Made by a program: the position numbers and the translations under genes. A stretch of DNA of 28,869 nt from a virus, in IMG/VR virus record IMGVR_UViG_3300032820_000080, positions 1 to 28,869 of that record; one strand, 5' to 3'. Position 1 is the first letter of the stretch; each line of letters starts with the position of its first letter. This document shows, piece after piece, positions 6,748 to 27,838 of this stretch. The notes beneath the pieces were generated by a model that saw nothing but the letters and a program-made list of their open reading frames with translations, had not been told where the DNA came from and searched no databases.

Positions 6748-7803
6748 ATGGCGGATACGCAAAATGCCCCGTCTGTGCCGCAAGGCCCAATAGCTCCCTC
6801 AGAAAGTATTGAGGCAGCCCATAATGCAATTCTTGGCTTATTAGATTCCGACGAGGAAACACCTGAGAGCGAGGAAGAGCAACCTTCAGAAGAGGAAGAG
6901 TCTACAGAGGAAACTCAAGACGAATCATTGGAAGAAGTTTCCGAAGAGGAAGAAGAATCTGAGGACGAAGAGTCCGAAGAGGAGGAAGAATCTGAGGAGT
7001 CCGAAGAAGAGAGCGATGACAAAGATGCACTTTATGAGGTTCGCGTTGATGGCGAAGACCATGAAGTTACCCTCGATGAACTTGTAAAAGGATATTCTCG
7101 ACAGTCGGATTACACTAAAAAAACTCAAGCGTTGGCAGCAAGCAGGGAGGAGGCAGAGTTATCTAAATCTCAGTACGAAGCTGCACTACCTGAACTCCAA
7201 CATTTGAAACAGCAGTACGTTGACGCTTTAGGTCAAGTCATAAATAACTCTATGGCTGGACTTGAAAGGTTTAACATTGATTGGGAAACCCTAAAAGAAG
7301 ATGATCGCGAAGAGTATCTTCTGAAGAGGGATGAGTTTAGGCAGGCTCAGGAATCAATACAAAGAACGCAACAGCAAAGGCAACACGAAGCTGAGAATAT
7401 GCAGCGCGAAGCGCAGGATTCTCATCAAAGAATGGTGGAGCAAGAGCAGGCGAAACTTGTAAAGATGGTTCCAGAATGGGGCAAAGCAGAAACCAGACAA
7501 TCATTGGCTATTGAATTGCGCGATTATGCGCTATCTCAAGGGTTTACAAAAGAGGAGATATCCTCATTAATAGACTCAAGATCGTTTGTTGCTTTAATGA
7601 AAGCAATGAAATACGACGCTTTATCTGGAACAAAAATAAAAGCAAAGAAGATAAAGAACAAGCCAAAAGTTATACGTTCAGGTACAGGAACCAAGAGAAA
7701 GGCAGAGGCAAAAAGCAAACGTAACGCCCAAATGAAGCGTCTTAGAGAGACAGGTCATTTAGATGACTCAGTAAGTCTCTTTGAGGATTTTATAGACATT
7801 TAA
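6748..7803 (+). CDS. Capsid scaffolding protein
   Basis: A 351-residue protein with the classic charge polarity of a phage scaffold. Residues 33-92 are almost entirely Glu, Asp and Ser. Then comes a short domain (YEVRVDGEDHEVTLDELVKG, 96-115) with the usual 'v.vdGe..evtldEL..GYsrqsDYTkKTq' pattern. A glutamine-rich coiled coil covers about 130-235, and the C-terminus (about 300-340) is strongly basic. The basic end would bind capsid subunits during prohead assembly and the protein would leave or be lost before maturation. No protease motif is visible. The Shine-Dalgarno AAGGAG lies at 6734-6739, eight bases before the ATG. The major capsid gene follows after a 17-base gap. Confidence 0.85.
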   Translation: MADTQNAPSVPQGPIAPSESIEAAHNAILGLLDSDEETPESEEEQPSEEEESTEETQDESLEEVSEEEEESEDEESEEEEESEESEEESDDKDALYEVRVDGEDHEVTLDELVKGYSRQSDYTKKTQALAASREEAELSKSQYEAALPELQHLKQQYVDALGQVINNSMAGLERFNIDWETLKEDDREEYLLKRDEFRQAQESIQRTQQQRQHEAENMQREAQDSHQRMVEQEQAKLVKMVPEWGKAETRQSLAIELRDYALSQGFTKEEISSLIDSRSFVALMKAMKYDALSGTKIKAKKIKNKPKVIRSGTGTKRKAEAKSKRNAQMKRLRETGHLDDSVSLFEDFIDI

Positions 7804-7820
7804 AATAGGAGGATTGCATT

Positions 7821-8819
7821 ATGGCAGTTCCTGCAAATACTAGGCTAACCTTTAGCGCCATTGGCATTAGGGAAGACCTAAGTAACATTATATACAATAT
7901 CAGCCCAACGGACACCCCATTTCTTAACGGGTGTGGCAGAGGAACCGCTGATAACACTCTATTTGAGTGGCAGACAGATGAGTTGGCAACTCCTGCTGCT
8001 AACAGGCAGTTAGAAGGTGATGATTATGCTTCGACTGCTGCAACAGAGCCGAGGCGTTTGACAAATTACACCCAAATCTCCGCAACGCAAGTCCAGAGTT
8101 CTGGAACTGCTGAAGCCGTGGATTTTGCTGGGCGTAAATCAACTCAGGCTTATCAGCTTGCTAAACGTGCTAAAGAAATGAAGCGCGATATGGAACAGAT
8201 GCTACTTGATGGCACAGCTAAAGTTGCTGGTGGTGCTGGTGCTGCTAGAGAGTCTGCGTCTTTTGCTACTTGGGTTGGTACTAACGTTATCGGTACAACG
8301 CCTATCGTAGCTGCGTCTACTGGTCTTGGTCTTGTTAATAACGGTGCAGCGGGTTATCCTGATGGCACGACAAGTTCCTTAGGTGGTGGCGCTAATACGG
8401 CTGTTTCACTTTCTCTAATCAATGAGGTAGTGGGCCGCATTTGGGATCTTGGTGGATCACCTGATACCATTTTGTGCAGAAGCGATGTAAAACAAACCAT
8501 TAGTTCCGCCGCTGTTGGTGGTTCTGTTGTTGCTGACCCTGTAGGTAACACTTCGGGTAGCAAACCCATCACCGCTGTAAATGCGGTTGACGTTATGGTA
8601 ACAGACTTTGGTACGTTTAAGGTTGTACCTGATCGCTTTTTGCCTGCTGGTAACTGTGATTTCATTGACTTTGATCTGTGGTCTGTAGATTATTTACGGC
8701 CTTTCCGTACAGAAACTCTTGCCAAATCTGGTGATAGTGTGAAGCAGCTTTTGATTGCTGAGTACGGGTTGCGTTCAAAAAATGGTCTTGGCAGCGGCAT
8801 GCTCAAGAGCGCAATTTAA
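7821..8819 (+). CDS. Major capsid protein (DUF5309 / SU10-like)
   Basis: A 332-residue capsid subunit. The N-terminal region (FSAIGIREDLSNIIYNISPT, about 11-30, followed by DTPFLNGCG) and the later QLEGDDY and TNYTQI segments match the pattern of the DUF5309 / phage SU10 major capsid family (HK97 fold). The C-terminus (VDYLRPFRTETLAKSGDS, about 290-307, then an isoleucine/alanine strand) is also typical. The start has a perfect AGGAGG at 7807-7812. It follows the scaffold gene, the normal order. A strong hairpin lies directly after the stop, compatible with separate control of capsid messenger level. Length is normal and nothing looks broken. Confidence 0.92.
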   Translation: MAVPANTRLTFSAIGIREDLSNIIYNISPTDTPFLNGCGRGTADNTLFEWQTDELATPAANRQLEGDDYASTAATEPRRLTNYTQISATQVQSSGTAEAVDFAGRKSTQAYQLAKRAKEMKRDMEQMLLDGTAKVAGGAGAARESASFATWVGTNVIGTTPIVAASTGLGLVNNGAAGYPDGTTSSLGGGANTAVSLSLINEVVGRIWDLGGSPDTILCRSDVKQTISSAAVGGSVVADPVGNTSGSKPITAVNAVDVMVTDFGTFKVVPDRFLPAGNCDFIDFDLWSVDYLRPFRTETLAKSGDSVKQLLIAEYGLRSKNGLGSGMLKSAI

Positions 8820-14744: not shown

Positions 14745-15042
14745 AAATCGAGGATTACAACAATTAGGGTTTATTACAAATGAGGACTTTTCCCTTCAAG
14801 ACGATGGGGATGGCATCTACATTAGGCGATGGCTCTCCGAAAAACCTCAGCCTTCTGATGCGGAAATAGAAGAGGCTTACGTTGCTTGGGAAAATGACCA
14901 TACTTGGAAACGAAAAGCAGAATACCCATCAATAGATGAACTTGTTGTGGCGCTTTGGGAAGGTGTGGTTGAAGAAAGAATGGCTGCGGTTACTTCACTA
15001 GAAGGAAAGCGTCAGGCTGTAAAAACCAAATATCCTAAATGA
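14734..15042 (+). CDS. Tail-assembly-type chaperone protein 3
   Basis: A 102-residue protein. It contains YIRRWLSEKPQPSDAEIEEAY (about 29-49), the same 'w....pqPs..Ei..a' motif as chaperone 2. A helical C-terminus includes YPSIDELVVALWEG (about 68-81) and ends KTKYPK. The 'YPsi.eql.alweg...e.......i.aVk.kYPk' ending is a well-known phage motif in tail-fibre-associated proteins. Two successive ATGs (14734 and 14737) can start it; both overlap the adhesin stop. Its own stop overlaps the 54-residue membrane gene in ATGA. It most likely serves the third adhesin. Confidence 0.75.
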   Translation: MMHKNRGLQQLGFITNEDFSLQDDGDGIYIRRWLSEKPQPSDAEIEEAYVAWENDHTWKRKAEYPSIDELVVALWEGVVEERMAAVTSLEGKRQAVKTKYPK

Positions 15043-15203
15043 GTTTTATAGTAGGGATAGCAAGAATAGCGCATTGGTTTTTTATCCCTTTCTTGATAAT
15101 ATGGATGACAATAGCACCAAACGATATGCTTCCTAATTGTCTTATCGAAGCAAAGCAGGCTGTGTCTAATAAATTTAGTGGCGGATATTTCGGGGAAGAA
15201 TAA
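15039..15203 (+). CDS. 54-residue single-pass membrane protein
   Basis: A small ORF linked on both sides: ATGA with the chaperone gene and TAATG with the IscA-like gene. After a short MSFIVGIARI start there is one hydrophobic helix at about residues 8-27 (WFFIPFLIIWMTIA), then a polar tail with one cysteine and the ending GGYFGEE. No family is recognised. Holin-like or membrane-anchoring roles are both possible. The coupling to the iron-sulfur carrier suggests they are made in step. Confidence 0.65.
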   Translation: MSFIVGIARIAHWFFIPFLIIWMTIAPNDMLPNCLIEAKQAVSNKFSGGYFGEE

Positions 15204-15526
15204 TGGTGACAGTAACAGACAGCGCAATGGACAAGGTTGCTGACCTATTAGAAAGTCAACCAGACATGGTGGGCATCCGTGTATTCGTATATGGGGGAGG
15301 CTGTAGCGGAATGAAGCATAGCATGACCTTTGCTGATGTTAGAGAAAAGAGAGACATTGAACTTTCATCCAATCTTTACATAGACCCAGTGGCAATCCAG
15401 TACATGGATGGCGCTACAATAGACTACGATGCATCAACTATGAACCCTACCTTCAGGTTCCTTGACGTCTTTCAGGCGCAGGGTGGTTCAGGTACATGCG
15501 GTGGTTGTGGGGCTGCTGGTGGATAA
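15203..15526 (+). CDS. IscA/HesB-like A-type iron-sulfur carrier 1
   Basis: A 107-residue protein of the HesB/IscA (A-type carrier) family, which holds a 2Fe-2S or 4Fe-4S cluster, or iron, on three cysteines and passes it to apoproteins. Visible: RVFVYGGGCSGM (26-37) with Cys34, a central beta region with IDPVAIQYMDGATIDYD, and a C-terminal CGGCG with Cys99 and Cys102. The family normally ends in CGCG (Cys-X-Cys); here there is an extra Gly, giving Cys-X-X-Cys, and a glycine-rich tail without the usual SF. That is odd and may alter metal binding. It follows the small membrane gene in TAATG and precedes the gp10-like tail gene. Viral copies could support host metabolism or be virion parts; neither is shown here. 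Confidence 0.8.
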   Translation: MVTVTDSAMDKVADLLESQPDMVGIRVFVYGGGCSGMKHSMTFADVREKRDIELSSNLYIDPVAIQYMDGATIDYDASTMNPTFRFLDVFQAQGGSGTCGGCGAAGG

Positions 15527-15550
15527 GGGAAGCTATTTCGGAGAACAGTA

Positions 15551-17392
15551 TTGTCATTAATTGCTTTAGAAAATGCTGGGCAGACAGGAATCGTCCAAGA
15601 CATACAACCGTGGCAGTTGCCCATCAATGCGTGGAGCGATGGCAATAATGTACGGATGGAGCATGGCTCTGTATTTAAATGCAAGGGTTATTCTTCAGTC
15701 ATGGAAACCTGCCCTATCGCCCCTTATCATATTGCCTACATTAAAGTATCAGGCAATAAATACTGGGTAGCCTGTGGGCTTGCAGCTATCCATGTCTTTG
15801 ATGCTACTGAAAAGACAACCGCCCTAGATGGTGGTATTAGTGCAGCGGCTACAGGTATTACAGTGGATAGTGTAGTTGGTTTTGAGACTGCTGGCACTAT
15901 AACTATAGGCTCCGAAGAGATTCCCTATACAGGTATTTCAACAAATACATTTACAGGGTGTGTAAGGGGAGGCGGTGCTACGACCCATTTAGATGGAGCA
16001 ACAGTAACCAGAACTAAGAAGTGGTATGACATTACCAGAGGCGGTGGGGCTGGCGGTGCGTATTCTGCTACCGCTTCGGAGACTTGGGCTTCTACGGTTA
16101 TAGGCGGTGTGCTTGTTGTAACTAATGGATTTGATAAGCCTCAGTTTTGGGAACTTGTCGATGGTGTGCCAGCAACCATTCAGAAGATGCAGAACCTGAC
16201 TAGCTGGCCTGTGGCGACAGAATGTAAATCAATGAGAGCGTTTCGCTCGTTCTTGGTTTCTCTCAATATAACTGCGTCAAATGTTAATTTCCCCAGAGTA
16301 GTAAAGTGGTCAACAGAGGCCGCAATACAAACAGTCCCCGCATCTTGGAACGAGGCGGATGCTACGGTAGATGCTGGTGAATATGAATTAGCAGACACTA
16401 AAGGAGCAATACTAGACGGTCTTCCATTACGCGATTCCTTTATGATCTATAAGGAAGATGCTGTCTATTCAATGACCTATGTCGGTACACCTTTTATCTT
16501 TTCATTTAGGCAGCTTTCACCTTCAGTTGGGATTCTCTCTAAAAACTGTGTTGCAGAGTTCGACGGAGGCCATTTTCTTTTCGGTAATGGTGACATTTAC
16601 CTAAACGATGGGCAAAGGATTTCATCTCTATTACCCCATAAAATGCGGGATCATGTATTCGCGCTAGTAGATGGGGATCACATTGAGAAGTCTTTTGTAG
16701 TTGCTGACTACGGAAGGACAGAGATGTTAGCTTGCTTTGTTTCTACGAGTGCTGGAACAGATAACCAATGCGACAAGGCTTTGATATGGAATTGGGTAAA
16801 TAATACTTTCTCCATTAGGGATATACCCAATCTTGCCCACATGGGTTACGGTAGTGTAAAGAATGAGTTATCCTATACAACTTGGACTGCTGCCGCTGCA
16901 CTTCCCCCTTCCCCTGCTGGCCCATCTTGGTCTGCCGCTATTGGAGCATGGGCCGTATCATGGGATGATGTGGAGAATGTGCTTCTTTTTGCTGACCCTG
17001 TAAGCACAAAACTATACAGGGATGGATCAGGCAACAAGGAAGACACTACGGATATGGTATCTTATGTTGAAAGAACAGGCTTGACATTCACTGCCCAAAA
17101 TCAGCCAGACCAATCAACAGTAAAACGTATAAAGGCTATATGGCCCAAGATGACTATAGCGAGTGCTGATACAGTAAATTTCTACATCGGAACCCAGATG
17201 TCTACAGAAGAGGCTATTACATGGAGTTCTCCAATAACTTTCAACCCAGACACCCAATCTAAGGTATCTTGTAGAGCGAGTGGAAAACTTTATGGAATCA
17301 AAATTGAATCCACTGGTGACACTTCTTGGAGACTTGATGGGCTAGAGTTTGAGTTAGACGATGCAGGAAGACGTGGTTCTAGGAGTTACTAA
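15551..17392 (+). CDS. Tail hub / packaged-DNA stabilization protein, P22 gp10-like
   Basis: A 613-residue protein. The N-terminus (PWQLPINAWSDGNNVRMEHG, about 20-39) is the typical 'lpp.aWsdg.NVrf.dG...k..G' opening of gp10-like stabilization proteins in marine podoviruses. An inserted small beta domain (about 98-150) carries ITVDSVVGFETAGTITIG and a TFTGCVRG turn, common in phage structural proteins. The rest is beta-propeller-like, with SKNCVAEFDGGHFLFG around 330. The protein would sit below the adaptor and plug the DNA channel. The start is a TTG at 15551 with GGAG at 15539-15542, eight bases upstream; the same frame has no ATG nearby. The stop overlaps the next gene in TAATG. Confidence 0.8.
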   Translation: MSLIALENAGQTGIVQDIQPWQLPINAWSDGNNVRMEHGSVFKCKGYSSVMETCPIAPYHIAYIKVSGNKYWVACGLAAIHVFDATEKTTALDGGISAAATGITVDSVVGFETAGTITIGSEEIPYTGISTNTFTGCVRGGGATTHLDGATVTRTKKWYDITRGGGAGGAYSATASETWASTVIGGVLVVTNGFDKPQFWELVDGVPATIQKMQNLTSWPVATECKSMRAFRSFLVSLNITASNVNFPRVVKWSTEAAIQTVPASWNEADATVDAGEYELADTKGAILDGLPLRDSFMIYKEDAVYSMTYVGTPFIFSFRQLSPSVGILSKNCVAEFDGGHFLFGNGDIYLNDGQRISSLLPHKMRDHVFALVDGDHIEKSFVVADYGRTEMLACFVSTSAGTDNQCDKALIWNWVNNTFSIRDIPNLAHMGYGSVKNELSYTTWTAAAALPPSPAGPSWSAAIGAWAVSWDDVENVLLFADPVSTKLYRDGSGNKEDTTDMVSYVERTGLTFTAQNQPDQSTVKRIKAIWPKMTIASADTVNFYIGTQMSTEEAITWSSPITFNPDTQSKVSCRASGKLYGIKIESTGDTSWRLDGLEFELDDAGRRGSRSY

Positions 17393-17670
17393 TGGCACTT
17401 GCCGATGTAAAGAGGGTCAAGTCTGTAGTTCGTTATGAGCCGGGACCACTACCAGAAGACAAAGAGGATTTGGGAATCTATGTGGTTACAGAATTTAAGA
17501 GATTAGGAAACATACTATTCAACCAATCGGTGATGAGACTTGAAGAAACAAACACAGCCCCCGCAAAACCAAGAGATGGAGACATCAGATACGCTGATGG
17601 ATCAAACTGGAATCCGGGAGCGGGTACAGGAATTTATTGGTTCGATGGCACCACATGGAACAAGCTGTAA
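17392..17670 (+). CDS. Small tail protein
   Basis: A 92-residue protein ending in a beta segment with GDIRYADGSNWNPGAGTGIYW (about 63-83) and a final FDGTTWNKL. The 'aPakPrdGdirYADGtnWnPG.G.G.y...gtWn' sequence is a recurrent signature of small tail-region proteins in podoviruses of marine bacteria. The N-terminal half has an EDLGIYVVTEFKRLG helix. The precise role is unknown. Start overlaps the gp10-like stop (TAATG 17390-17394); the end overlaps the GNAT-like gene by 26 bases in a different frame. Confidence 0.7.
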   Translation: MALADVKRVKSVVRYEPGPLPEDKEDLGIYVVTEFKRLGNILFNQSVMRLEETNTAPAKPRDGDIRYADGSNWNPGAGTGIYWFDGTTWNKL

Positions 17671-18082
17671 GGTTGGAGTAGTACACCCAGAAGAAGTACC
17701 CAAACTCTGGAAGAAGGTATTGCCGCAAATAGAGCGGTGCGTACCCCACTCAGAGGGGGAGATGGAGTCTCCTGACTTCTATGTGGCCCTTGTTGACGGT
17801 GAAATGCAGTTATGGATAGCGGTAGAAGACGAAGAGGTTATCGCTTCTATGGTTACTCAGATCATACCTTACCCCCAAAAGAAGGTGTTGAGAATCATCG
17901 CAATAGCTGGTGGAGATATGGATAAGTGGTTCCACTTTGAGCCTGACTTGGAAGAGTTTGCAATCCTCATGGGTTGTACATCCTTAGAAGCTTGGGGTCG
18001 GAAAGGATGGAAGAAGATATTAACGGATTGGAAAGATTCATACGTTGTCTACACAAAAGAACTAGATAGAAGGTTACATTAA
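17645..18082 (+). CDS. GNAT-fold acyltransferase-like tail-region protein
   Basis: A 145-residue protein with a GNAT-like layout. An N-terminal helix includes WKKVLPQIERC; LWIAVEDEEVIASMVTQI (about 57-74) is the central beta pair; then come VLRIIAIAGGDMDKW, a helix EEFAILMGCTSLEAWGRKGW, and a final strand with YVVYTKEL. The 'vgg..t.i..YP.kkv.riv...G.....wf......e.fA...GC..vea.gR.gW.k.l' series is typical of small GNAT proteins encoded in podovirus tail modules. The acetyl-CoA loop is weak (IAIAGG only), so activity is uncertain. I chose ATG 17645; AGGA at 17628-17631 is 13 bases upstream. An earlier in-frame ATG at 17540 would overlap the preceding gene by 131 bases. Confidence 0.7.
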   Translation: MAPHGTSCKVGVVHPEEVPKLWKKVLPQIERCVPHSEGEMESPDFYVALVDGEMQLWIAVEDEEVIASMVTQIIPYPQKKVLRIIAIAGGDMDKWFHFEPDLEEFAILMGCTSLEAWGRKGWKKILTDWKDSYVVYTKELDRRLH

Positions 18083-19626
18083 TGGCTTCAAAAACCGTCA
18101 CAGTACCAACAAGACATAAAGGATTATTGGCTGCTTATATCACGCCCGAAGAGGCTGGTATACTTGTCGATATGTTTCATAAAGAATCTGACCCGCCCAA
18201 AGCTGGGCCGGGTGGATTGCTTATGTATGAGGGTGGTGGTGAGGATTGGTATCTGGAGGAATTGTACGAGAAAGCTGCTGAAGAAGCTGCTGGCAGAAAG
18301 CTATCAATGGATGAAAAAGCTTCTATCGTTGGTGGAGTTTGGGGCGGTGCTGATGATACTGATAAAGTATCTTCGGAGGAAGGTGCGAGAAGGTATGGTG
18401 AAGCTTTAGCTTCTGGCGCACATTCCGACACTCCTATAACTGCCTCAGCAAGCGTAATAGAGACATTAGGTTATGATCCGGGTTCAGATGTTGATCTTTC
18501 CTATGACTATGATGCGGGGCGTTATAGAGCCACGGAGCATGTTGAAATGTCTCCACGCGAGGCTGGAGATATTCATGGTTACGGGCATGGTGATGACGCT
18601 GGGCGTATGGGTTACTATGTCCCAGAAGGCGGCATGTGGACTGTAGAGATGGACCCAATTGGTTCTGGCAGCTCAACGCCAACAACAGTTGTTCCATTCC
18701 CCGGAGCTGGTGGTGGTGCTGCTGCTGGTGGTGGTGGAGCTGCTGCTGGTGGTGGTGGTGGCGGTGGAGTGGCTGGGGGTGGTGGGGTTAGAGTCCCATC
18801 AGGACCGGGTGGCTACAGAGCGTCTGCTAGTGGGGGAGTTAGACCATTAAGCGGCGGTTATGTACCATACTCAAGATACAGTTTAGTATACCCTATGACG
18901 ATGCCAGAGGCTCCTAGCGGAGCTGGTGCAGCCGACCCCTACCGTACTGGAAGAAAGGCTACATGGGAGTCTACAGGAGTTCCTATGGAGCTGTGGGATT
19001 ATGAAGCACCAACCATTCGCGGTATGCGTGGTGGTGGTGGCTTTATGGCTGGTGGTATCCCAACATCTTACGCGCCCATAGCTCCACCCGGATTAATCGG
19101 TGGACCCATTGGTGGCGGTGGTGGACCCGGTGGCGGTGGAATAGGGCCGGGATCATTTGTCGGAGGTGGTTGGGAGCCACCATTTGAGGTTTTTGAAGGT
19201 GGGCATGATCCTGAGGGTGGCCCCACCTCTACATGGGGTGGTTATTTACCGGGAATGGGTGGCGTTGCGGCGGGTTATACTGGTGCTGACCCCACGTGGG
19301 CAGGAAGCTCAAGTTATGGTGGTTATGTTCCGGGGGCGCACCATGTAGGAGTAGAAATGGAACCGCACGATTACACTAGCCCGGTATCAACAACCGCTCT
19401 AGATGATTACGTCTCCCCCGTCCCAAGCTCTGTGGTTACTGGAATAGCTCCTCCGTCTGTACTATCAGCTCCGGTATCAGCGCCAGTTCCAACATTTAGT
19501 TTTGATGATTCTTTCGCTAGCGGCGGGTTTGATGTAGAGGAGCATTTTGGTTTGGGATCAGAAGGTTATGGCGGTGGGTTTGGCGCTCCCGGTGGTTCTG
19601 GTGGCGGCGGTGGATTCGAAGTTTAA
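18082..19626 (+). CDS. Glycine-rich structural-like protein
   Basis: A 514-residue protein I do not recognise. The first 190 residues are mixed and charged, with a helix (EELYEKAAEEAAGRKLS) and an acidic DLSYDYDAGRY segment. From about 190 on the protein is mostly Gly, Pro, Ala and Ser with scattered Tyr, Met and acidic residues, including poly-Gly/poly-Ala blocks at about 208-236. No signal peptide, membrane helix or catalytic motif is evident. The terminal residues are again poly-Gly with FEV at the end. It sits between the GNAT-like gene (TAATG overlap) and the S74-type gene, so a virion role is likely. The disordered composition could act as a flexible linker or glue. Confidence 0.55.
   Translation: MASKTVTVPTRHKGLLAAYITPEEAGILVDMFHKESDPPKAGPGGLLMYEGGGEDWYLEELYEKAAEEAAGRKLSMDEKASIVGGVWGGADDTDKVSSEEGARRYGEALASGAHSDTPITASASVIETLGYDPGSDVDLSYDYDAGRYRATEHVEMSPREAGDIHGYGHGDDAGRMGYYVPEGGMWTVEMDPIGSGSSTPTTVVPFPGAGGGAAAGGGGAAAGGGGGGGVAGGGGVRVPSGPGGYRASASGGVRPLSGGYVPYSRYSLVYPMTMPEAPSGAGAADPYRTGRKATWESTGVPMELWDYEAPTIRGMRGGGGFMAGGIPTSYAPIAPPGLIGGPIGGGGGPGGGGIGPGSFVGGGWEPPFEVFEGGHDPEGGPTSTWGGYLPGMGGVAAGYTGADPTWAGSSSYGGYVPGAHHVGVEMEPHDYTSPVSTTALDDYVSPVPSSVVTGIAPPSVLSAPVSAPVPTFSFDDSFASGGFDVEEHFGLGSEGYGGGFGAPGGSGGGGGFEV
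18703..18786 (+). repeat. GGN/GCN trinucleotide tract
   Basis: An 84-base in-frame stretch of GGT, GGC, GGA and GCT codons with two near-identical blocks, each a GCTGCTGCT followed by a run of GGT. It encodes alternating poly-Gly and poly-Ala in the glycine-rich protein. The triplet nature means that slippage would change length without changing frame. Confidence 0.85.
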
Positions 19627-19639
19627 CGAGGAATAAATT

Positions 19640-20605
19640 ATGGCTGGTGGATCAAAAACTACAACGACTACAAGTGAGCCGTGGGCTGAGCAAAAAGACT
19701 TTCTAAAGAAAGGTTTTGCTAGAGCAGAGAATCTTTATGCAGCAGAGCCTAGAGGCCCAGCTTACTATCCGTCTGCAACCTTAGCGGGATTTGACCCAGC
19801 ACAGGCTGAGTCTCAACGTATGGCGCTAGGCTATGCGGCGGGTGATCGCCCAGCAGAGCAGCAGAGGTTCGCAGAGAGGAACATCAACCAGATGCAGACA
19901 GGCATGGTTGATGAGGCCAGCTTTAATCCACAGCTAGAGGCTATGAAGCGACAGATGACCTCACGCTTAACTGGCTCTGTATTGCCGGGTATTCGGCAGT
20001 CTATGGTGCAGTATCAGCCCGGTGGTAGTAGCCGTGGCGATCAGGTGCAGGCACAGGCTATTGCAGCAGCTAATCAACAGTTCTTAAACAAAGAAGCGGA
20101 GATGAGGCAGCAGGCTTATGAGGCCGCTCAGGGGCGCAGGGTTAGTGCTTTAGGCGCTTATCCATCTATTATGTCAGCGCCACTAGGAATGGCTGAGGCT
20201 GTTGGTCAAGTTGGTGCAGACCGTAGAGGAATGTCGCAAGAGGCGATGAACAGAGATATCCAACGATACATGTACGAATCTCAAGCGCCACAAACTGCGC
20301 TCAATCAGTATATGGCAAATATATCGGGAGATTATGGTGGGACTTCTACTCAAAATGTGCCGGGAACAAGTTCCATTGGCTCTATCATGGGTGCAGTGTT
20401 GCCAGCGTTAATCTCTGACGAGCGATTGAAGGAAAACATTGAGCCTATAGGTGAACATAAAGGATTCAAATGGTACAGTTACAACTACATCTGGAGTCCT
20501 AAGAAATTCATCGGTGTGCTTGCTCAAGAGGTTGAGAAGATTCTTCCAGAAGCGGTCATTACGATTAATGGTGTTAAGGCTGTTCGTTATGGGATGATTG
20601 TATAA
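19640..20605 (+). CDS. Virion protein with minimal S74-type C-terminal chaperone
   Basis: A 321-residue protein. The N-terminus is MAGGSKTTTTTSEPWAEQKD, then a helical part with PAYYPSATLAGFDPAQAESQ (about 40-59), common in marine phage virion proteins near the ejection genes. Residues 60-250 are glutamine-rich and helical. The last 63 residues (259-321) carry SDERLKENI, GVLAQEVEKILPEAV and a YGMI end: the core of an intramolecular chaperone of the peptidase S74 type, where self-cleavage occurs before the Ser of 'SD.RLK.NI'. The usual long helical extension is absent, so it may fold or trimerise without cleaving. An AGGA Shine-Dalgarno precedes the ATG; the stop overlaps the next gene in TAATG. 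Confidence 0.75.
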   Translation: MAGGSKTTTTTSEPWAEQKDFLKKGFARAENLYAAEPRGPAYYPSATLAGFDPAQAESQRMALGYAAGDRPAEQQRFAERNINQMQTGMVDEASFNPQLEAMKRQMTSRLTGSVLPGIRQSMVQYQPGGSSRGDQVQAQAIAAANQQFLNKEAEMRQQAYEAAQGRRVSALGAYPSIMSAPLGMAEAVGQVGADRRGMSQEAMNRDIQRYMYESQAPQTALNQYMANISGDYGGTSTQNVPGTSSIGSIMGAVLPALISDERLKENIEPIGEHKGFKWYSYNYIWSPKKFIGVLAQEVEKILPEAVITINGVKAVRYGMIV

Positions 20606-21054
20606 TGGCTGGTTCATTAATGTCTATGGTGCCACCTTCATTTTCTAATTTCGGAAGAAACATAGGAAGCGCCATCAGGGGGTTTGGTCAGGATATTGGA
20701 TTATCCCCTAGAAAGCGAAGACAATACACTGGCAACCCGCACTTACAGCAAAGGCGATACACTGGAAATCCACACTTAGACCCAACTCCTGAACAGGTGC
20801 AAGCCATGACAAGTGAGGGTTTCTTTGATGCGGAACTTGCGGCTGCGCTGTCTGGTATTAAATCAAAAGAAGGTCAATTAAGAGCGCCAAGACCGGGTAA
20901 ATTTGGCCCACGCAAAACATACGCCAAGCTTCAGCCTCCTATGGCACAGTTTGATAATCGTTCGTATGCTGGTGTGATGGGTCCGCGAAAACGTAGAATG
21001 TTTGGATATAACCCTAGAGTTGGTGGGTATGTAGGAGGTTCACGGAATGCGTAG
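20605..21054 (+). CDS. Basic repeat-containing internal-type protein
   Basis: A 149-residue, strongly basic, Gly/Pro/Arg-rich protein. Short N-terminal amphipathic stretch (MAGSLMSMVP start), then two adjacent copies of a YTGNPHL motif (41-47 and 52-58) between arginine clusters, and a later GPRKRRMFGYNPRVGG. No known domain is recognised. Composition and place between the S74-type protein and the larger internal proteins suggest a DNA-contacting virion component. The start overlaps the previous stop by one base; the end overlaps the next gene by eight. The 738-residue neighbour begins with a similar GDPRLRKRRR segment. Confidence 0.6.
   Translation: MAGSLMSMVPPSFSNFGRNIGSAIRGFGQDIGLSPRKRRQYTGNPHLQQRRYTGNPHLDPTPEQVQAMTSEGFFDAELAAALSGIKSKEGQLRAPRPGKFGPRKTYAKLQPPMAQFDNRSYAGVMGPRKRRMFGYNPRVGGYVGGSRNA
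20721..20778 (+). repeat. Tandem 25-base repeat in basic protein gene
   Basis: Bases 20721-20745 and 20754-20778 are near-identical (ATACACTGG core followed by A/C-rich CCGCACTTA or CCACACTTA) and 33 bases apart in frame. They encode the duplicated YTGNPHL motif. Confidence 0.75.
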
Positions 21055-23263
21055 TCCTAACTATGGTTTATTTGACTCCCCTTATTGGGGCGTACCGGGC
21101 AGACTTCAGTATAATCCGTCCGCCCCTCCCGGCTCACAAAACTTGATAGGTGATCCGAGACTGCGGAAGCGCAGGAGGCTTACACCAGCTCAGGTGTTAC
21201 CATCGTCAAGAGCTATGCAAGAGGTTTTAAGCGCACCTAACCCTCAGTTCATGGGCGGTGCTTTGCCCCAAGCCGTGATGACTCCTCAACAGCGTCAACA
21301 TGCTATGCGTTCTCGTACCTTTAATCGCTCTCCAGATCCACGCGCCCAAGCTCCCGCACCAGTTCGGGTTCCAGATGTTGCGTATCCTTTTGAGCGGTCT
21401 CAGGGGAGGGCAATGTTTGATCCAGAGATTGTGGGTCCAGCGGCACAACATGCTAGAATGTTGCAAGCTAACGCAACTCAACGATCTCGTTATGCGGGTC
21501 CGGGGCCTAGAGGCCACACGCGATCCCCTCCACCTGTTGACGAGTTTAGAGGGATAGAACCACCATTTGTTGATGTGGGGCAAGGCGACTATACTGGCAC
21601 CGTTGCTGACGATGAAAGTTTGGGTATGCGTGATTGGTATGCCCGTGAAGCCCAAGAGCAGCGCAGGGTAAAGGATAGAACTACGGCTCCTAAACCAGAA
21701 GATATTGCTGCTTGGATGCAGAGGCGTCGGCTTGCGATTCAGAAAGAGTATGATAAAGACATTATTGCATTTCAGGACGATGAGTATGGTGCTACTCCCG
21801 GTGGACAAGCTGGGCTGTTAGAAAGGGTTGATGATTGGATCAGAACCCCAACAAAGACGGGCGATAGTGCTTACGCCGACACAATGATACAAGACCAGAA
21901 CACTCGTATAGAAGAGCAGCAGCAAAGAGATATATTGGGTAGTGGAACGAAGTCTATAGGTCAAGTTATGTTTCCGAATGCTGACGAGCAAATGGCTGTT
22001 CGTAGAATGGTTTCTGGTGAGAAAGCTCCGGTGCATGGTCCTGTATCTGCTATTGATAACTTTAAAGAAATTATTGAGAAGGTTCATAGCGGAGGGCCAA
22101 TAGGCAGAGACCCCACAAAATCGCACGATAAGAAATATAACGAGGCATACGATAAACTTACAGTAGTTGATAAAGACAAACAAACAGAGATTGTAAATAC
22201 TTGGGCTGCGGATAAGACATTCGATGCTGAAGGTTATATCTCCCCAACTACAACCTCTAAAGAGCCGCCAATAGATTCAAAAGATTTAACGGGCGAAGTT
22301 GCTTCTTCTGTTAAAATAGCAGCAAAATCTAATGATGTACCAAGCAAAGATGCTGCTGATATCGTAACATCAACGCCACAGCAAAATGCAGAAAGAATTT
22401 GGGGTAACTTCTCAAGAGACTCAGGAAGCAAGAGAACTAAATACTTATCTGCAATGAATGATATGTATAAGAAGATGATGATCCTTAACGTCATTGCTGC
22501 GCTTACTGGTTCAGAAAGTCAAGCTCCGTTATTCATGGAGATGGCTATGGCTAAGATGAAAGCTATGGAAAGTTTTGATGGAATGGAGCGCCTTGATAGC
22601 ATCAGGAAAGGTGTGTTCTATACTGAGGATGGTAAGTTCGATCCACCTAAGTCTCGTCTGATGGCTTTCAGGAGAGCAATTAGATTTGGAGCTAATGAGA
22701 AAGAAGCGGAAGCTTTAAGCGGTCATCACCCAACCCCATCCAAAACTCCAGTAGGTTTTGAAACGTGGCACAGAGTTGGGGCAGATGGTAACTTAGAGCA
22801 AAAAACAGTGCCAAGAGGAACCAGACCCCCGGCAAATGGTGGAAGACCTTACATAAAGGGTCAGGGTTCGGCTGGTGCTTTGACTACTCAATATATTAAA
22901 TCTGTTGAAGGTGCCATAGCTTCCGGGAATATACCGTTAGCGAAAAAGTTGATTGGTAGGCAATATACGATTGATGGTTATGATAGACTTATGGGACCAC
23001 CCACGCCAGAGAGCATTCAAAAGTATGTCGATGCTACCTATCCGCAATTTGCTGGGATAGTTAGCGCGAGGGCTAACCCTCCCGCGCAAGCCCCAGCAGT
23101 ACAGCCCACCACTCAAACAGCACAGCCCGTAGCTGAGCAAGCTCAAGGTAAAACATTAGCACCACAAAGCGCTATTAATTATTTAATGGAAAATAATACT
23201 GAAGCTGTTCGAAAAGCGTTTTTAAATAAGTATGGGTATCTTCCGGAAGGGTTTTCAAATTAA
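21047..23263 (+). CDS. Putative internal virion protein
   Basis: A 738-residue protein of unknown function. The N-terminal 150 residues are Pro/Arg-rich and probably extended (LFDSPYWGVPGRLQYN, GDPRLRKRRRLT). The middle is charged and helical, with QQRRVKDRTT and an IEEQQQRD coil. A hydrophobic helix with MYKKMMILNVIAALTGSE lies at about 470-487, and the C-terminus is a proline/alanine/glutamine linker followed by AINYLMENNTEAVRKAFLNK. No catalytic motif is visible. Size, charge and position between the S74-type and the 958-residue proteins fit a set of ejection proteins packed inside the head. This is inference from context. Confidence 0.55.
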   Translation: MRSPNYGLFDSPYWGVPGRLQYNPSAPPGSQNLIGDPRLRKRRRLTPAQVLPSSRAMQEVLSAPNPQFMGGALPQAVMTPQQRQHAMRSRTFNRSPDPRAQAPAPVRVPDVAYPFERSQGRAMFDPEIVGPAAQHARMLQANATQRSRYAGPGPRGHTRSPPPVDEFRGIEPPFVDVGQGDYTGTVADDESLGMRDWYAREAQEQRRVKDRTTAPKPEDIAAWMQRRRLAIQKEYDKDIIAFQDDEYGATPGGQAGLLERVDDWIRTPTKTGDSAYADTMIQDQNTRIEEQQQRDILGSGTKSIGQVMFPNADEQMAVRRMVSGEKAPVHGPVSAIDNFKEIIEKVHSGGPIGRDPTKSHDKKYNEAYDKLTVVDKDKQTEIVNTWAADKTFDAEGYISPTTTSKEPPIDSKDLTGEVASSVKIAAKSNDVPSKDAADIVTSTPQQNAERIWGNFSRDSGSKRTKYLSAMNDMYKKMMILNVIAALTGSESQAPLFMEMAMAKMKAMESFDGMERLDSIRKGVFYTEDGKFDPPKSRLMAFRRAIRFGANEKEAEALSGHHPTPSKTPVGFETWHRVGADGNLEQKTVPRGTRPPANGGRPYIKGQGSAGALTTQYIKSVEGAIASGNIPLAKKLIGRQYTIDGYDRLMGPPTPESIQKYVDATYPQFAGIVSARANPPAQAPAVQPTTQTAQPVAEQAQGKTLAPQSAINYLMENNTEAVRKAFLNKYGYLPEGFSN

Positions 23264-23266
23264 ACT

Positions 23267-26143
23267 ATGGCTAACGTATTCGATCAATTTGACGAGAAGA
23301 AAAAGCCAAACATATTCGATCAGTTTGATTCGTCATCCATACCCGGTCAAGAAGACCAATCCTTTTTGTCTTCTGCTGGAAGCGCTATTAGTGAGGGGTG
23401 GGAAGCTCTGCCTAAGCCTGTATCGGCTACTGCCGAATTTCTTGCTGGTCCTATTATCAGTGCTGGGAAGTATGGTGGTAGCGGAGTCATGTCTGCTCTG
23501 CATCAGCTAGGTAGACCGCAAAGCGCAATCGCTGGCGGCATCCATAATATAGTTGAAGAGTACCGCAGACCTGATGACCCAAGCGATGATAGATCGTTAT
23601 GGGAGAAGTATGCTACAGAAACTTTACAAGATATGGGTAAAGGTTTTACTTACGAAGATGAAAAAAGAATACAGGACGTTATTGCTTTAGCAGACCCAGA
23701 GTGGGTCAAGGATCATCCGATATGGTCTACTGTTCTTGGTTTTGCTGGCGATGTTATAACTGATCCCCTAAATCTTGTAGGTGTGGGCTTGCTTAGACAT
23801 GGTATATCCGTTCCCGTCAAAGCTTTGAATAAAGCTATCGCAGCCACAGCCCCCGGAAGGGCGCTTATGGCTGCCGCAGATAACCCCATACTCCGCGCCT
23901 TTAACGTGTATACCGGAGATAAAAAGAAAGCTAGGGATTTGTATGTTCAGTACCTTGATAATGTTCGTGGCGCTCATGGTAAGCTATCAAGAGCAAGGAA
24001 CGTTGAGAAGAAGGTTCTTAAAGACGCAGCCTCTAAGCTTGGTGTTTCCGTTGATGACCTTGAGCGGCAGATTATACGCGAGGCGGAAGGTGGTGCTATA
24101 GATGCGGCAGCTAGAGGATTACCCGCCGACCTAAAGGGTCCAGCACTAGCTAAGGCGCAAGAGGAAGCTAAGGGTGTTACTAAGATCATGGAGGGGTTTC
24201 TAGCTAAGGAAGGCGCAGATGTTCCGATAGCAGGTATGGGTGAAGGAGCCAGAGTTATTGCTCCAGACATAGGTGACGTTGCCGCTCGTAGTGGTGATCT
24301 TGGTGTGGAGGGTTATATACCCCACATCCTTAGTGAATCTGGAAGGAAAACAGCAGAGAAAAGCGGTACGCTGCGTGACGTCTATAGGACGCACCCTAGT
24401 ATGATACAGCGTCAAAAAGCTGGCACAGTTGAAACAAATAATCTGAAGCATGGCGAAGATTATTTCATCACTGACTTGCCTACTATTAAAGCTGTGCGCG
24501 GCGCTAGAAGTGCACAGGTTGTGGCTGGCACCAACTTCTTAAAGGAGACTGCTGAAACATTAGGCCGACCTGTGGGTTCTGTTGGCACTGATGGTTGGAT
24601 ACCCATCGCGGGGATTGAAGGCGTTGTCTTTGATCCGGGTGTTGCAGGCATGGTGAAGGGCATGGCTAAAACAATTCGTGATCCTAAAGAACTAGGTAAA
24701 TACCTGAAGTATTTTGACGGAGCTACTAGGTGGTGGAAGATGTGGTCTTTAGGACTGAGGCCAGCTTACCATTCACGAAACATAGTCGGTAACATTTGGA
24801 ACGCTTACCATATCGGAGGGTTGAGCAACCCCCTGTACTTTGGTAAGGCTATGAAAATACAGAGGGATGCCTCAAGGAAGGGTGGTGCAGAAGCGATAAC
24901 AGGAAAAATTAATCTTGGTAAATATAATGGTGGGGAAGCTGTAAAGAGAGAGGTTATTTGGAAGGAGGCGATGGAAGATGGGGTGTTCAACCACGGACAA
25001 TACTCCGATGACCTTATATCTAACGTGCAAGATTACGCAGTACAAAGCGCCCCAAAGAACGCAAAACAATCATTAGCCCAGTGGGTTACACCATCCACAA
25101 AGAATAGGTTATTGCAGGGTGGGTTTGCTACAGGTAAGGCTCTAGAAAATAATGCTAGGCTTGCGTTGTACATGGACACTCTGGCTAAAACGGGATCGAG
25201 AAGTGCTGCAAGAGCTAACGTAAAGAAAGCATTGTTTGATTACTCTGACCTCTCTGATTTTGAGCAAGGCGTAATGAAGCGAATGATGCCATTCTATACT
25301 TGGTCAAGGAAAAATATCCCAGCCCAAATAGAGGCTATGATAAAGAACCCGCAAAGAGCCGCTAAGGTTCATCACCTTATTGATAACATTCAGTACGGTG
25401 TAGATACACCATCATTAGACGAGGTTAGCGAGTTTGTTGCGGGTAGAAACCCTGTGTTCATTGACAAATTCTTCAAGTCGGAAGGTGGTGAGAAAGACGT
25501 TCATAACGTGATAACGCTAATGAACTGGCTCCCCCTTGCTGACCCAGACAGATTGTTAGATTGGAAGCCCATACGAGAAGGCAAAGCTGGATCAACCGGA
25601 ATTCCCTTCCCAAGCTTGATTGCTGAAATGACAAACCCTTATATCAAATCTGTGTTTGAAGGTATAATGAATTATGATATATACCGAAGGAGAGATATAG
25701 AAGAATTAAAGGGGCAGACTGTTGACTTTCTAGGGATAAGGATGAGTCCACATATCGCTAAACTGGCGCAAAATTTAATAATGCTTTCTGAGTTTGACAG
25801 GCTGAATGTTGGGGGGGTATTTGGGGAGAGGTCAAGGGATGCGGCTGGTAACTTGGTGTCATCTCCTGCGAAGTTTACTCCTCCGTGGCAGGACGAGCCT
25901 AGTATGCGAGAAAGCAGAACAGACTTACCAATGTCTCAAAGACTGCTACAGTATCTTGTAGGGTTACGACCATACGAGGCAAAAGTAGACAGGAAGAAGT
26001 GGGAAAAGATAGCGATAAGAAAAGACTTTAGGGAGCTTAGGTCTAAGTTGCGTAGCGCACTCAGGTCTGGGAAAGTACAACAATCGCAGGAAATAAGAGA
26101 GTCGTTAAGAAGAATGCAAAGGGTAATGGGTGATATGCAATGA
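23267..26143 (+). CDS. Large internal virion / ejection protein with polyvalent-type region
   Basis: A 958-residue protein. It begins with a tandem motif (VFDQFDEKKKP, then IFDQFDSS) of the 'n.FDqFd' type frequent at N-termini of podovirus ejection proteins. Near residue 498-520 is GLRPAYHSRNIVGNIWNAY and near 658-690 DYSDLSDFEQGVMKRMMPFYT, followed by WSRKNIPAQIE. The 'l.pa.h.rN..gN' and 'fdYsdls.fE..v.kr.iPFytw.rkNiP.qie' segments recur in large polyvalent proteins thought to be injected with phage DNA. No transglycosylase or protease signature is seen. The end overlaps the secreted-protein gene in ATGA. Length is normal for such proteins, which run to over 1000 residues. Confidence 0.7.
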   Translation: MANVFDQFDEKKKPNIFDQFDSSSIPGQEDQSFLSSAGSAISEGWEALPKPVSATAEFLAGPIISAGKYGGSGVMSALHQLGRPQSAIAGGIHNIVEEYRRPDDPSDDRSLWEKYATETLQDMGKGFTYEDEKRIQDVIALADPEWVKDHPIWSTVLGFAGDVITDPLNLVGVGLLRHGISVPVKALNKAIAATAPGRALMAAADNPILRAFNVYTGDKKKARDLYVQYLDNVRGAHGKLSRARNVEKKVLKDAASKLGVSVDDLERQIIREAEGGAIDAAARGLPADLKGPALAKAQEEAKGVTKIMEGFLAKEGADVPIAGMGEGARVIAPDIGDVAARSGDLGVEGYIPHILSESGRKTAEKSGTLRDVYRTHPSMIQRQKAGTVETNNLKHGEDYFITDLPTIKAVRGARSAQVVAGTNFLKETAETLGRPVGSVGTDGWIPIAGIEGVVFDPGVAGMVKGMAKTIRDPKELGKYLKYFDGATRWWKMWSLGLRPAYHSRNIVGNIWNAYHIGGLSNPLYFGKAMKIQRDASRKGGAEAITGKINLGKYNGGEAVKREVIWKEAMEDGVFNHGQYSDDLISNVQDYAVQSAPKNAKQSLAQWVTPSTKNRLLQGGFATGKALENNARLALYMDTLAKTGSRSAARANVKKALFDYSDLSDFEQGVMKRMMPFYTWSRKNIPAQIEAMIKNPQRAAKVHHLIDNIQYGVDTPSLDEVSEFVAGRNPVFIDKFFKSEGGEKDVHNVITLMNWLPLADPDRLLDWKPIREGKAGSTGIPFPSLIAEMTNPYIKSVFEGIMNYDIYRRRDIEELKGQTVDFLGIRMSPHIAKLAQNLIMLSEFDRLNVGGVFGERSRDAAGNLVSSPAKFTPPWQDEPSMRESRTDLPMSQRLLQYLVGLRPYEAKVDRKKWEKIAIRKDFRELRSKLRSALRSGKVQQSQEIRESLRRMQRVMGDMQ

Positions 26144-26520
26144 CTTCTAAAATAATAATCTCCGCATTATGGTTCTTATTGCTGGTGTCCCCCGATTCTA
26201 TGGCGGTGAACCCAAAGATATTTAAATCCGTTGTGTCTCTCCAAGTCCTATGTACTTCAGGTGGCCCTGAAATACTTATGCAGGAACTTCTTGATGGCTA
26301 CAATGAGAAGCCTGTTCATGGTATGGACATAAGTACAGACTCTGGATTGAATATACAGATGTATATTACAGAAAATAAAAATAATCCCAGCAGTACTGTC
26401 TTATTGCACAATCAGAATGTGGACAAAACCTGTATCTTCTGGTCTGCCCAAGACACTATCAAGACAATAGAAACAGAAAGTCTGCCAGCTAAAACGCCAG
26501 AGCGTAAGGAAGATACATGA
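26140..26520 (+). CDS. Secreted small protein with signal peptide
   Basis: A 126-residue protein. Residues 1-22 form a signal peptide: MTSK, a hydrophobic core IIISALWFLLLV, and a likely signal peptidase I site after SMA. The mature part has two cysteines, in LQVLCTSGGPE (about 36) and DKTCIFWSA (about 103), likely one disulfide, with LLDGYNEKPVHG between. The 'C.....i...L...Y.E.P...G...........C..W' outline resembles small periplasmic proteins found in marine bacteria and phages. The function is unknown. It begins a run of envelope-related genes. Both ends overlap neighbours in ATGA. Confidence 0.65.
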   Translation: MTSKIIISALWFLLLVSPDSMAVNPKIFKSVVSLQVLCTSGGPEILMQELLDGYNEKPVHGMDISTDSGLNIQMYITENKNNPSSTVLLHNQNVDKTCIFWSAQDTIKTIETESLPAKTPERKEDT

Positions 26521-26819
26521 ATATAGATGCGAAATTCTTTGGGGCCATTATGTTTCTTCTAGTTCAAACTGTTGGTGCAATATGGTGGGCTTCAGGTCTA
26601 ACCTCTGAAGTTGAGCGCCTTGCTGGTATACAGGGACGCGCTATACCGGCGCTAGAAGCGGAAGCCAAGCAGTGTGGTATTGAGATACATAATCTCAAGA
26701 AGCTCACAGGCGACCAAGAGAAGATAGCGGAATCTGTAAAGAACCTAGATGTTATGCTGTATAGGCTGCAATCTATTGAACAGATGCTGGACAAGATTCT
26801 AGCCACAAAGGTACGGTAA
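26517..26819 (+). CDS. Membrane-anchored coiled-coil protein
   Basis: A 100-residue protein with one N-terminal membrane helix (about 7-26, AIMFLLVQTVGAIWWAS) and a charged coiled coil for the rest, with a single cysteine near residue 53. This topology fits an inner-membrane spanin (Rz-like) or a holin-associated anchor. No catalytic residues are visible. It is coupled on both sides (ATGA, TAATG) to other small envelope-protein genes. Spanin identity is inference from topology only. Confidence 0.6.
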   Translation: MNIDAKFFGAIMFLLVQTVGAIWWASGLTSEVERLAGIQGRAIPALEAEAKQCGIEIHNLKKLTGDQEKIAESVKNLDVMLYRLQSIEQMLDKILATKVR

Positions 26820-27106
26820 TGTCTGAGTATACGGGTCCAGAGCGACGGGGTAATGGTGGGTGGCACATGTCAAAGAGTCTCAGCGTCTCTCATCTGCTAG
26901 GCACTCTTGCCATTGCTGTGGGATTCTTTACTTACGTAACTGGAATTGAACAAGATACTATCCGAAACCAGCTTGAACTCAGAAGTTTAGTTGAGCGTAT
27001 GGATAGATCAGACGCTAGAAACTCTGAGCAGTTTGGGGAAATAAAGGATATGTTGAAATCACTGTCTGTTAAGATAGATAATCTAGGGCATCGACGTGAA
27101 CGATGA
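26819..27106 (+). CDS. Small membrane protein with coiled-coil tail
   Basis: A 95-residue protein. The N-terminal MSEYTGPERRGNGGWHMSKS is a 'yTGpeRR..gwh.ek.is' motif often seen at the cytoplasmic end of small phage membrane proteins. One hydrophobic helix lies at about 22-41 (LLGTLAIAVGFFTYVTG), and a charged coiled coil ends in HRRER. A holin-antiholin or spanin-like role is possible but unproven. The gene overlaps the IscA-like gene downstream by four bases (ATGA 27103-27106), and its start overlaps the gene before. Confidence 0.65.
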   Translation: MSEYTGPERRGNGGWHMSKSLSVSHLLGTLAIAVGFFTYVTGIEQDTIRNQLELRSLVERMDRSDARNSEQFGEIKDMLKSLSVKIDNLGHRRER

Positions 27107-27408
27107 ACATAACGCCATCAGCGGAGAAGAAGATAGAACAGACCCTAAACGATTCAGAATATCTAAGGGTGGAGGTAAATGGTGGTGGTTGCAGTGGCTT
27201 CACAGTAGGATTGTCGAAGACAGATGGAGCCAACGAGAGCGATATATGGCTGAACGGGAACTTGGTTATAGACTCCATCTCGGCGGAGTATTTATCAAAG
27301 GCAACTCTGGATTGGATTGATGACGCATTTTCGCCAACATTTAAATTTGACATACCCAACACCAAATCATGTGGTTGTGGCAACTCTTTCACACTTGAGG
27401 AAACTTAA
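27103..27408 (+). CDS. IscA/HesB-like A-type iron-sulfur carrier 2
   Basis: A 101-residue A-type carrier. VNGGGCSGF (25-33) holds Cys30, and KSCGCGNSF (88-96) holds Cys90 and Cys92, the full canonical three-cysteine set with normal Cys-X-Cys spacing. The middle (DIWLNGNLVIDSISAEYLSK, 47-66, then ATLDWIDD) follows the family pattern. It is related to the carrier at 15203 (shared GGGCSG, Y...ATIDY/ATLDW and PTFRF/PTFKF segments) but otherwise quite different, so they are divergent paralogues or separate acquisitions. It lies between two small membrane genes, coupled in ATGA upstream and TAATG downstream. Cluster delivery to a host or viral protein is inferred from the family. Confidence 0.88.
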   Translation: MNITPSAEKKIEQTLNDSEYLRVEVNGGGCSGFTVGLSKTDGANESDIWLNGNLVIDSISAEYLSKATLDWIDDAFSPTFKFDIPNTKSCGCGNSFTLEET

Positions 27409-27506
27409 TGGAATCATTAAAAATCTGGGCAAAAGAAAACCCTATGTTCGCCGTAGCAGCAGTTCTACTAGCCGCTACGCTTGTTTACTCTCTGTTCTTT
27501 GGATAG
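27408..27506 (+). CDS. 32-residue single-pass membrane peptide
   Basis: A short ORF coupled in TAATG to the iron-sulfur carrier; GAGG at 27397-27400 is seven bases before the ATG. MESLKIWAKENP is followed by one helix (about 13-31, FAVAAVLLAATLVYSLFFG) up to the stop. Small peptides of this 'k.w...NP..a.aav.l....l' type precede lipoprotein genes in marine phage lysis regions. The lipoprotein gene overlaps it in another frame. Function is unknown. Confidence 0.6.
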   Translation: MESLKIWAKENPMFAVAAVLLAATLVYSLFFG

Positions 27507-27838
27507 GCGGATGTACAAGCCTAAAGAAAGCAGCATTGATAGGGGGAGGATCACTAGGAGCGGGTGCGATTGCCTCGATTGCGACATCGGGGACTGCTCC
27601 TGTGTTACTGGCGGGAGCGGCAGGTGCCTCTGTGACGAGTGTGGTTGCGGACGTAATGACTCCATCGAAGAAAGGAGGAGTCATGCCTACAGCAGTTAGT
27701 TGTGCAGAAACTAATTTTTGGGATGTTATTGGTCAACTTATAGAGATGGGCGGATGGTTACTAATCTTAGTTGTGTTGATTCCTATGGTACTGGGGTGGA
27801 TTCTACCCGGACCTCTGGAACGCAAGAAGAAAAAGTAA
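27425..27838 (+). CDS. Lipoprotein / holin-like membrane protein, start uncertain
   Basis: This frame encodes an IGGC lipobox (Cys about residue 30 from the CTG), a Gly/Ala-rich zipper-like segment (KKAALIGGGSLGAGAIASIA), and a C-terminal membrane helix in GGWLLILVVLIPMVLGW followed by ILPGPLERKKKK. The ending is one I recall from small lipoproteins of marine phage lysis regions. There is no ATG, GTG or TTG in a position to include the lipobox. CTG 27425 would give a good basic signal-peptide start (MGKRKPYVRR), but lies within the 32-residue gene and has no Shine-Dalgarno. A second start, ATG 27683 with AGGAGG at 27673-27678, would make a 51-residue helix-plus-lysine protein on its own. A sequencing indel is possible. 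Confidence 0.55.
   Translation: MGKRKPYVRRSSSSTSRYACLLSVLWIGGCTSLKKAALIGGGSLGAGAIASIATSGTAPVLLAGAAGASVTSVVADVMTPSKKGGVMPTAVSCAETNFWDVIGQLIEMGGWLLILVVLIPMVLGWILPGPLERKKKK

Follow-up and report, generated by a model that had tools for sequence, protein, structure and literature searches.

The question raised by this locus is why a marine phage should carry two predicted iron-sulfur cluster carriers among its late genes, each with a membrane protein gene coupled to it. The window, by which we mean the whole stretch of DNA analyzed, is a 28,869-base IMG/VR virus record, a fragment with packaging, head, tail, and lysis-type genes; matches to phage families were obtained for its portal, scaffold, major head protein, and tail protein. 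The nearest cultured portal, that of the Pelagibacter phage HTVC106P, is only ∼40% identical to the portal of the window, so the collection searched has no cultured phage close to this lineage. The two carrier genes, IscA1 and IscA2, are listed with their surroundings in Table 1. Their coordinates and coupled junctions (TAATG, ATGA, and TAATG, in gene order) are exactly those given in an earlier note on this DNA. Mem54, mem95, and mem32 each have a single hydrophobic segment, with maximum mean Kyte-Doolittle values of 2.06, 1.59, and 2.33, respectively.

Table 1. Genes at the two carrier loci of the window and candidate clients in related contigs
Feature	Position	Strand	Basis or remark
mem54, 54-aa single-span membrane protein	15039..15203	+	one hydrophobic segment; TAATG-coupled to IscA1
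IscA1, 107-aa HesB/IscA-fold protein, variant C..CxxC tail	15203..15526	+	PF01521, TIGR00049, AlphaFold model
Virion structural (tail) protein adjoining IscA1	15551..17392	+	phrog_3287, E 1e-114
Small secreted-type protein, first gene of cassette	26140..26520	+	N-terminal hydrophobic segment, two Cys
100-aa membrane plus coiled-coil-like protein	26517..26819	+	mobile inside cassette
mem95, one-span membrane protein, holin-like candidate	26819..27106	+	ATGA-coupled to IscA2
IscA2, 101-aa HesB/IscA-fold protein, canonical C..CxC	27103..27408	+	PF01521, TIGR00049, AlphaFold, Foldseek
mem32, 32-aa single-span membrane protein	27408..27506	+	hydrophobic segment; TAATG-coupled to IscA2
Lipoprotein-like gene, u-spanin-like topology	27506..27838	+	lipobox GGC, C-terminal transmembrane segment; 5' end uncertain
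DUF7227 protein	L265 (G009) 7366-8013; G002:9266-9913		possibly undescribed Fe-S family
Peptide deformylase, possible client	L276 (G034) 15683-16431	-	directly after, overlapping end of IscA2 gene

Family, Fold, and Cysteines of the Two Proteins

Both proteins score above the cut-offs of the Pfam model Fe-S_biosyn (PF01521; 36.8 bits for IscA1 and 40.0 bits for IscA2, cut-off 26.3) and of NCBIfam TIGR00049 (63.5 and 72.4, cut-off 58.8), so that the likeness is not one of chance and their description as HesB/IscA-type proteins holds. The equivalog cut-offs were all missed, whether for ErpA (117; 61.8 for IscA1 and 64.8 for IscA2), IscA (150.6; 49.5 and 49.8), or SufA (136.2; 56.3 and 43.5). The AlphaFold models of the two proteins (pLDDT 80 for IscA1 and 90 for IscA2) match solved IscA/SufA-type structures, with no other good match. 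Compared with E. coli SufA and IscA, the IscA1 model gives Z scores of 12.7 and 12.0 (for SufA over 87 residues), and the top Foldseek match of IscA2 is an IscA with a [2Fe-2S] cluster (1x0g, TM 0.78), with 2d2a and 1r94 also matched.

The three-cysteine layout claimed for both proteins is found as such in IscA2, where Cys-30, Cys-90, and Cys-92 make up the canonical C...CxC and are invariant in a 17-row alignment. In IscA1 the cysteines are Cys-34, Cys-99, and Cys-102, giving CxxC instead of CxC and thereby departing from the C...CxC signature of the carriers; this spacing is seen in all nine IscA1 sequences and in none of the 167 other carriers compared. The CxxC pair sits in the last 16 residues of IscA1, which are disordered in the AlphaFold model, and such a tail would test how far the cysteine geometry of a carrier can vary. 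This departure, the disorder of the tail, and the failure of both proteins to reach any equivalog cut-off count against reading the proteins as carriers. IscA1 and IscA2 are distinct, intact genes for proteins of the HesB/IscA fold.

Selection and Phylogeny

Median pairwise dN/dS is 0.06 for IscA1 (35 pairs) and 0.15 for IscA2 (106 pairs), and all cysteines are invariant in both sets. Both genes are under strong purifying selection and are not decaying; neither copy is the recent degraded acquisition that would have counted against the proposal of the earlier note.

In the carrier tree, which was built from a short alignment of 110 columns and in which long branches were flagged, the IscA1 sequences form one phage-only clade (support 100/100) and IscA2 joins 42 further phage sequences in a separate phage-only clade (99/98). 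The stems of the two clades are long (0.83 and 1.48 changes per column). The tree places IscA1 and IscA2 apart, but the AU test does not reject a joint clade of the two (p-AU 0.30); we therefore treat the paralogues of the earlier note neither as proven duplicates nor as proven separate captures. Outside phages, IscA2 is closest to alphaproteobacterial carriers, with ∼34–46% identity.

It could be argued that these are ordinary captured host carriers giving general metabolic support and that their position reflects only common insertion sites for extra genes. The alphaproteobacterial affinity would agree with this, as would the standing of ATC genes as known auxiliary genes of marine phages (PMC5332604). 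The long phage-only stems, together with the conserved neighborhoods described below, point instead to long residence and specialization over simple capture, and we consider general support of this kind rather unlikely.

Matches to the carriers among cultured phages were discarded, as the three records that were opened proved to be bacterial sequence filed as phage. The phage collection holds bacterial chromosome sequence in L396, L397, and L398, with isc operon and erpA neighborhoods. Neomarinimicrobiota, suggested by 74% matches in L284 and L285, was likewise rejected as host or donor; both contigs bear the same phage cassette and are therefore phage contigs within a metagenome-assembled genome (MAG). 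Their presence in a Neomarinimicrobiota MAG, as contigs of this phage group, is either a weak host hint or a binning artifact.

IscA2 in a Lysis-type Cassette

A profile search for mem95 found 68 loci, 55 of them distinct and followed by 1.5 kb of sequence or more. IscA2 lies within 350 nt downstream of mem95 in 42 of these 55, abutting or overlapping it in 32 and further off in 10, counts that are somewhat biased by a profile built from copies beside IscA2. No IscA2 occurs in the next 1.5 kb in the other 13, two of which have a truncated mem95. The slot without IscA is empty in L062, L064, and L066, holds a proline-rich protein in L070, and holds structural-type genes in others. In L082 the slot between the mem95 and mem32 homologues is taken by a GH108 plus PG_binding_3 endolysin (E 1e-19; PHROG endolysin, E 1e-40), which also weakly matches NF040573, a holin-associated muramidase, and is followed by a 38-residue membrane protein and then by a lipoprotein bearing a membrane segment at its C-terminal end. 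It is because of this endolysin, in one locus, that we refer to the block 26819–27838 as a lysis-type cassette.

Contig G031 (32.9 kb) carries a mem95 nearly identical to that of the window, differing at few positions, with no detectable IscA, and in G034 and G038 IscA2 is found apart from mem95. The partnership of mem95 and IscA2 is common and is obligatory in neither direction. The carrier-free mem95 of G031 and the endolysin of L082 together place IscA2 in what, from this comparison of gene content, is the cargo slot of the cassette.

Among the other members of the cassette, the 26140..26520 gene has a homologue in most IscA2 loci, and that of the 26517..26819 gene is found, in relatives, on either side of IscA2. 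Homologues of mem32 (30–49 residues) occur in most IscA2 loci and also in loci without IscA2, and the lipoprotein gene is conserved, with a pN/pS of 0.33 in its frame and a Kyte-Doolittle value of 2.43 for the C-terminal segment. Mem95, mem32, and the lipoprotein matched no Pfam or PHROG lysis family, and their topology suggests that holin and spanin roles may be filled within the cassette. A Pfam search for an endolysin in the window and in G009, covering large virion proteins and others, recognized none.

These observations bear on the proposal that IscA2 and the membrane proteins encoded in the cassette share a lysis-linked role, for instance with IscA2 as a cluster-based redox switch on the holin-like mem95 or as a source of iron-driven damage at lysis. 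The overlapping or abutting genes in 32 loci would fit such a role, as would the use of the same slot for the endolysin of L082; the near-identical mem95 that does without an IscA, the loci in which IscA2 lies away from mem95, and the other cargo found in the slot all argue against it, and we judge it decidedly unlikely.

A Cys-rich frame overlapping the lipoprotein gene (27511–27699; CDCLDCDIGDCSCVTGGSGRCLCDECGC) was rejected as a gene and as an Fe-S partner of IscA2 on its pN/pS of 1.20, the corresponding values being 1.30 for the third frame and 1.23–1.48 for the non-coding frames of IscA2. Four cysteines in it are identical in 41 of 41 loci though the lipoprotein sequence varies between subtypes; the substitutions in this frame look non-coding, but the lipoprotein frame shows a somewhat reduced level of synonymous change. 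For the lipoprotein gene (window 27317–27838) no start codon is clearly conserved; the gene overlaps mem32 in another frame, and a frameshift is possible.

IscA1 in the Tail-fiber Module

The corresponding profile search for mem54 found 55 related loci in viral contigs, 46 of which are distinct and have at least 300 nt downstream. IscA1 is the next gene in five of the 46 (the window and L023–L026), and mem54 runs straight into the tail gene in L130, L134, and L137 and into other genes elsewhere. In four other loci, L027–L030, IscA1 directly follows a non-membrane gene, the tail-fiber-associated gene of the 14734 type, with no mem54 between them. The membrane coupling of IscA1 is therefore incidental, and it is the tail-fiber module, not mem54, that forms the constant part of its surroundings. 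Hence the conserved membrane neighbors that the earlier note made the measure of its proposal are not found in the case of mem54 and are found at most mem95 loci, although not as an exclusive association. The further idea that each carrier and its membrane partner form a functional unit finds no support at either end, with IscA1 placed after non-membrane genes and the mem95 of G031 present without IscA.

Only 25 nt separate IscA1 from the downstream tail protein gene, the product of which had been a plausible recipient of metal. Whether or not a phage has IscA1, this protein has the same cysteines, which make up no cluster motif, and we rejected it as the metal client of IscA1. The large late proteins encoded at 18082, 19640, 21047, and 23267 contain no cysteine. 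A use in the virion or tail, with one or both carriers packaged or with metal loaded into a tail protein for iron delivery or redox reading at entry, could be suggested by the structural genes that surround both carriers in the loci read and by the proximity of IscA1 to a cysteine-containing tail protein. Given the indifference of those cysteines to IscA1, the lack of cysteine in the four large late proteins, and the movement of both carriers between phages with different capsids, we find it very doubtful.

The Carrier Pair as Optional Cargo

Besides the window, contig G009 (39.6 kb) also has two carriers, whereas G018 and G014 (40 and 43 kb) each gave one carrier match, to IscA2. Both IscA1 and IscA2 are found in phages with different capsid genes. 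The pairing is thus not fixed but is a combination that part of the group has, and the genes each move as cargo. Relatives, too, have late structural/lysis surroundings for both carriers, so that the late location assigned to them is sound; the word "lysis" in that assignment rests on L082, the window itself having no recognized endolysin. In these gene arrangements, both carriers behave as conserved optional cargo among late genes, and nothing suggests that they depend on, or act for, their membrane neighbors.

Relation to Known Systems

That HesB/IscA-like genes are known in marine phages, as the earlier note stated, is confirmed by Nishimura et al. (2017, PMC5332604), which describes 14 marine phage genomes with an ATC (sufA-like) gene and proposes that these genes help to sustain the Fe-S proteins of host and phage. 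Those genes and ours are alike in being A-type carriers of marine tailed phages, but the text available mentions no lysis-cassette site, no two-carrier genome, and no CxxC tail, all three of which are seen here. In the part of the literature covered, we came across no carrier within a lysis cassette, no phage with two carriers, and no carrier with a CxxC tail. Carrier genes in marine phages are thus already published, whereas these three features appear to be new.

The phage proteins share with bacterial ErpA, IscA, and SufA (PF01521, TIGR00049) the fold (2d2a, 1r94, 1x0g), the GGGCSG motif, and the C-terminal cysteine pair. They differ from them in identity (∼25–46%, below every equivalog cut-off), in forming phage-only clades, in the CxxC of IscA1, and in lying outside an isc/suf operon, on contigs in which a search showed no IscU gene. 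Both also match PHROG 17776 (E 7e-20 for IscA1 and 7e-19 for IscA2), which is annotated as of unknown function. The order in L082, mem95, endolysin, small membrane protein, and lipoprotein, resembles a holin-GH108 endolysin-spanin cassette; in the window IscA2 stands in the place of the endolysin.

Proposed Role and Candidate Clients

We propose, with moderate confidence, that both proteins are working A-type carriers of phage-specific lineages, carried as late cargo, that would feed Fe-S enzymes of the host or the phage. Their gene position suggests late expression, and cluster binding, transfer, and use are predicted for both. Each carrier would use its three cysteines to take a cluster, or iron, from the ISC/SUF scaffold of the host and would pass it to apo-proteins, and host or phage Fe-S enzymes might thereby be kept active until lysis. 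An IscU scaffold (NifU_N) had no match in 15 contigs, mostly fragments and including the window, and any cluster would therefore have to come from the host. That IscA2 instead belongs to the lysis programme, as an Fe-S protein made from the holin-spanin cassette whose cluster state ties the timing of lysis to cellular iron or redox conditions, with a separate late task for the CxxC variant IscA1, seems to us highly improbable. Iron-sulfur carriers borne by phages are mostly treated as aids to host metabolism. As working carriers, these two long-established phage lineages would offer concrete genes for asking why Fe-S delivery should matter at the end of infection, and why IscA2 is repeatedly kept in a lysis cassette where a relative has its endolysin.

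One possible client is the DUF7227 protein, with CxxxCxxC and CxxCxxC motifs, which was found in G009 and G002, two of 36 contigs; another is a peptide deformylase in G034. Peptide deformylase is a metalloenzyme able to use iron. No client shared by every carrier emerged, DUF7227 being limited to those two contigs, and this tells against the proposed role. The Radical_SAM family (PF04055) was rejected as a source of clients, with no match in 15 contigs and none to the DUF7227 protein, and the GP88 model gave one sub-threshold match, in G018. The protein encoded after the capsid gene in the same contig (L266, 12904–13659) shows by eye a likeness to prolyl-4-hydroxylase-type iron oxygenases.
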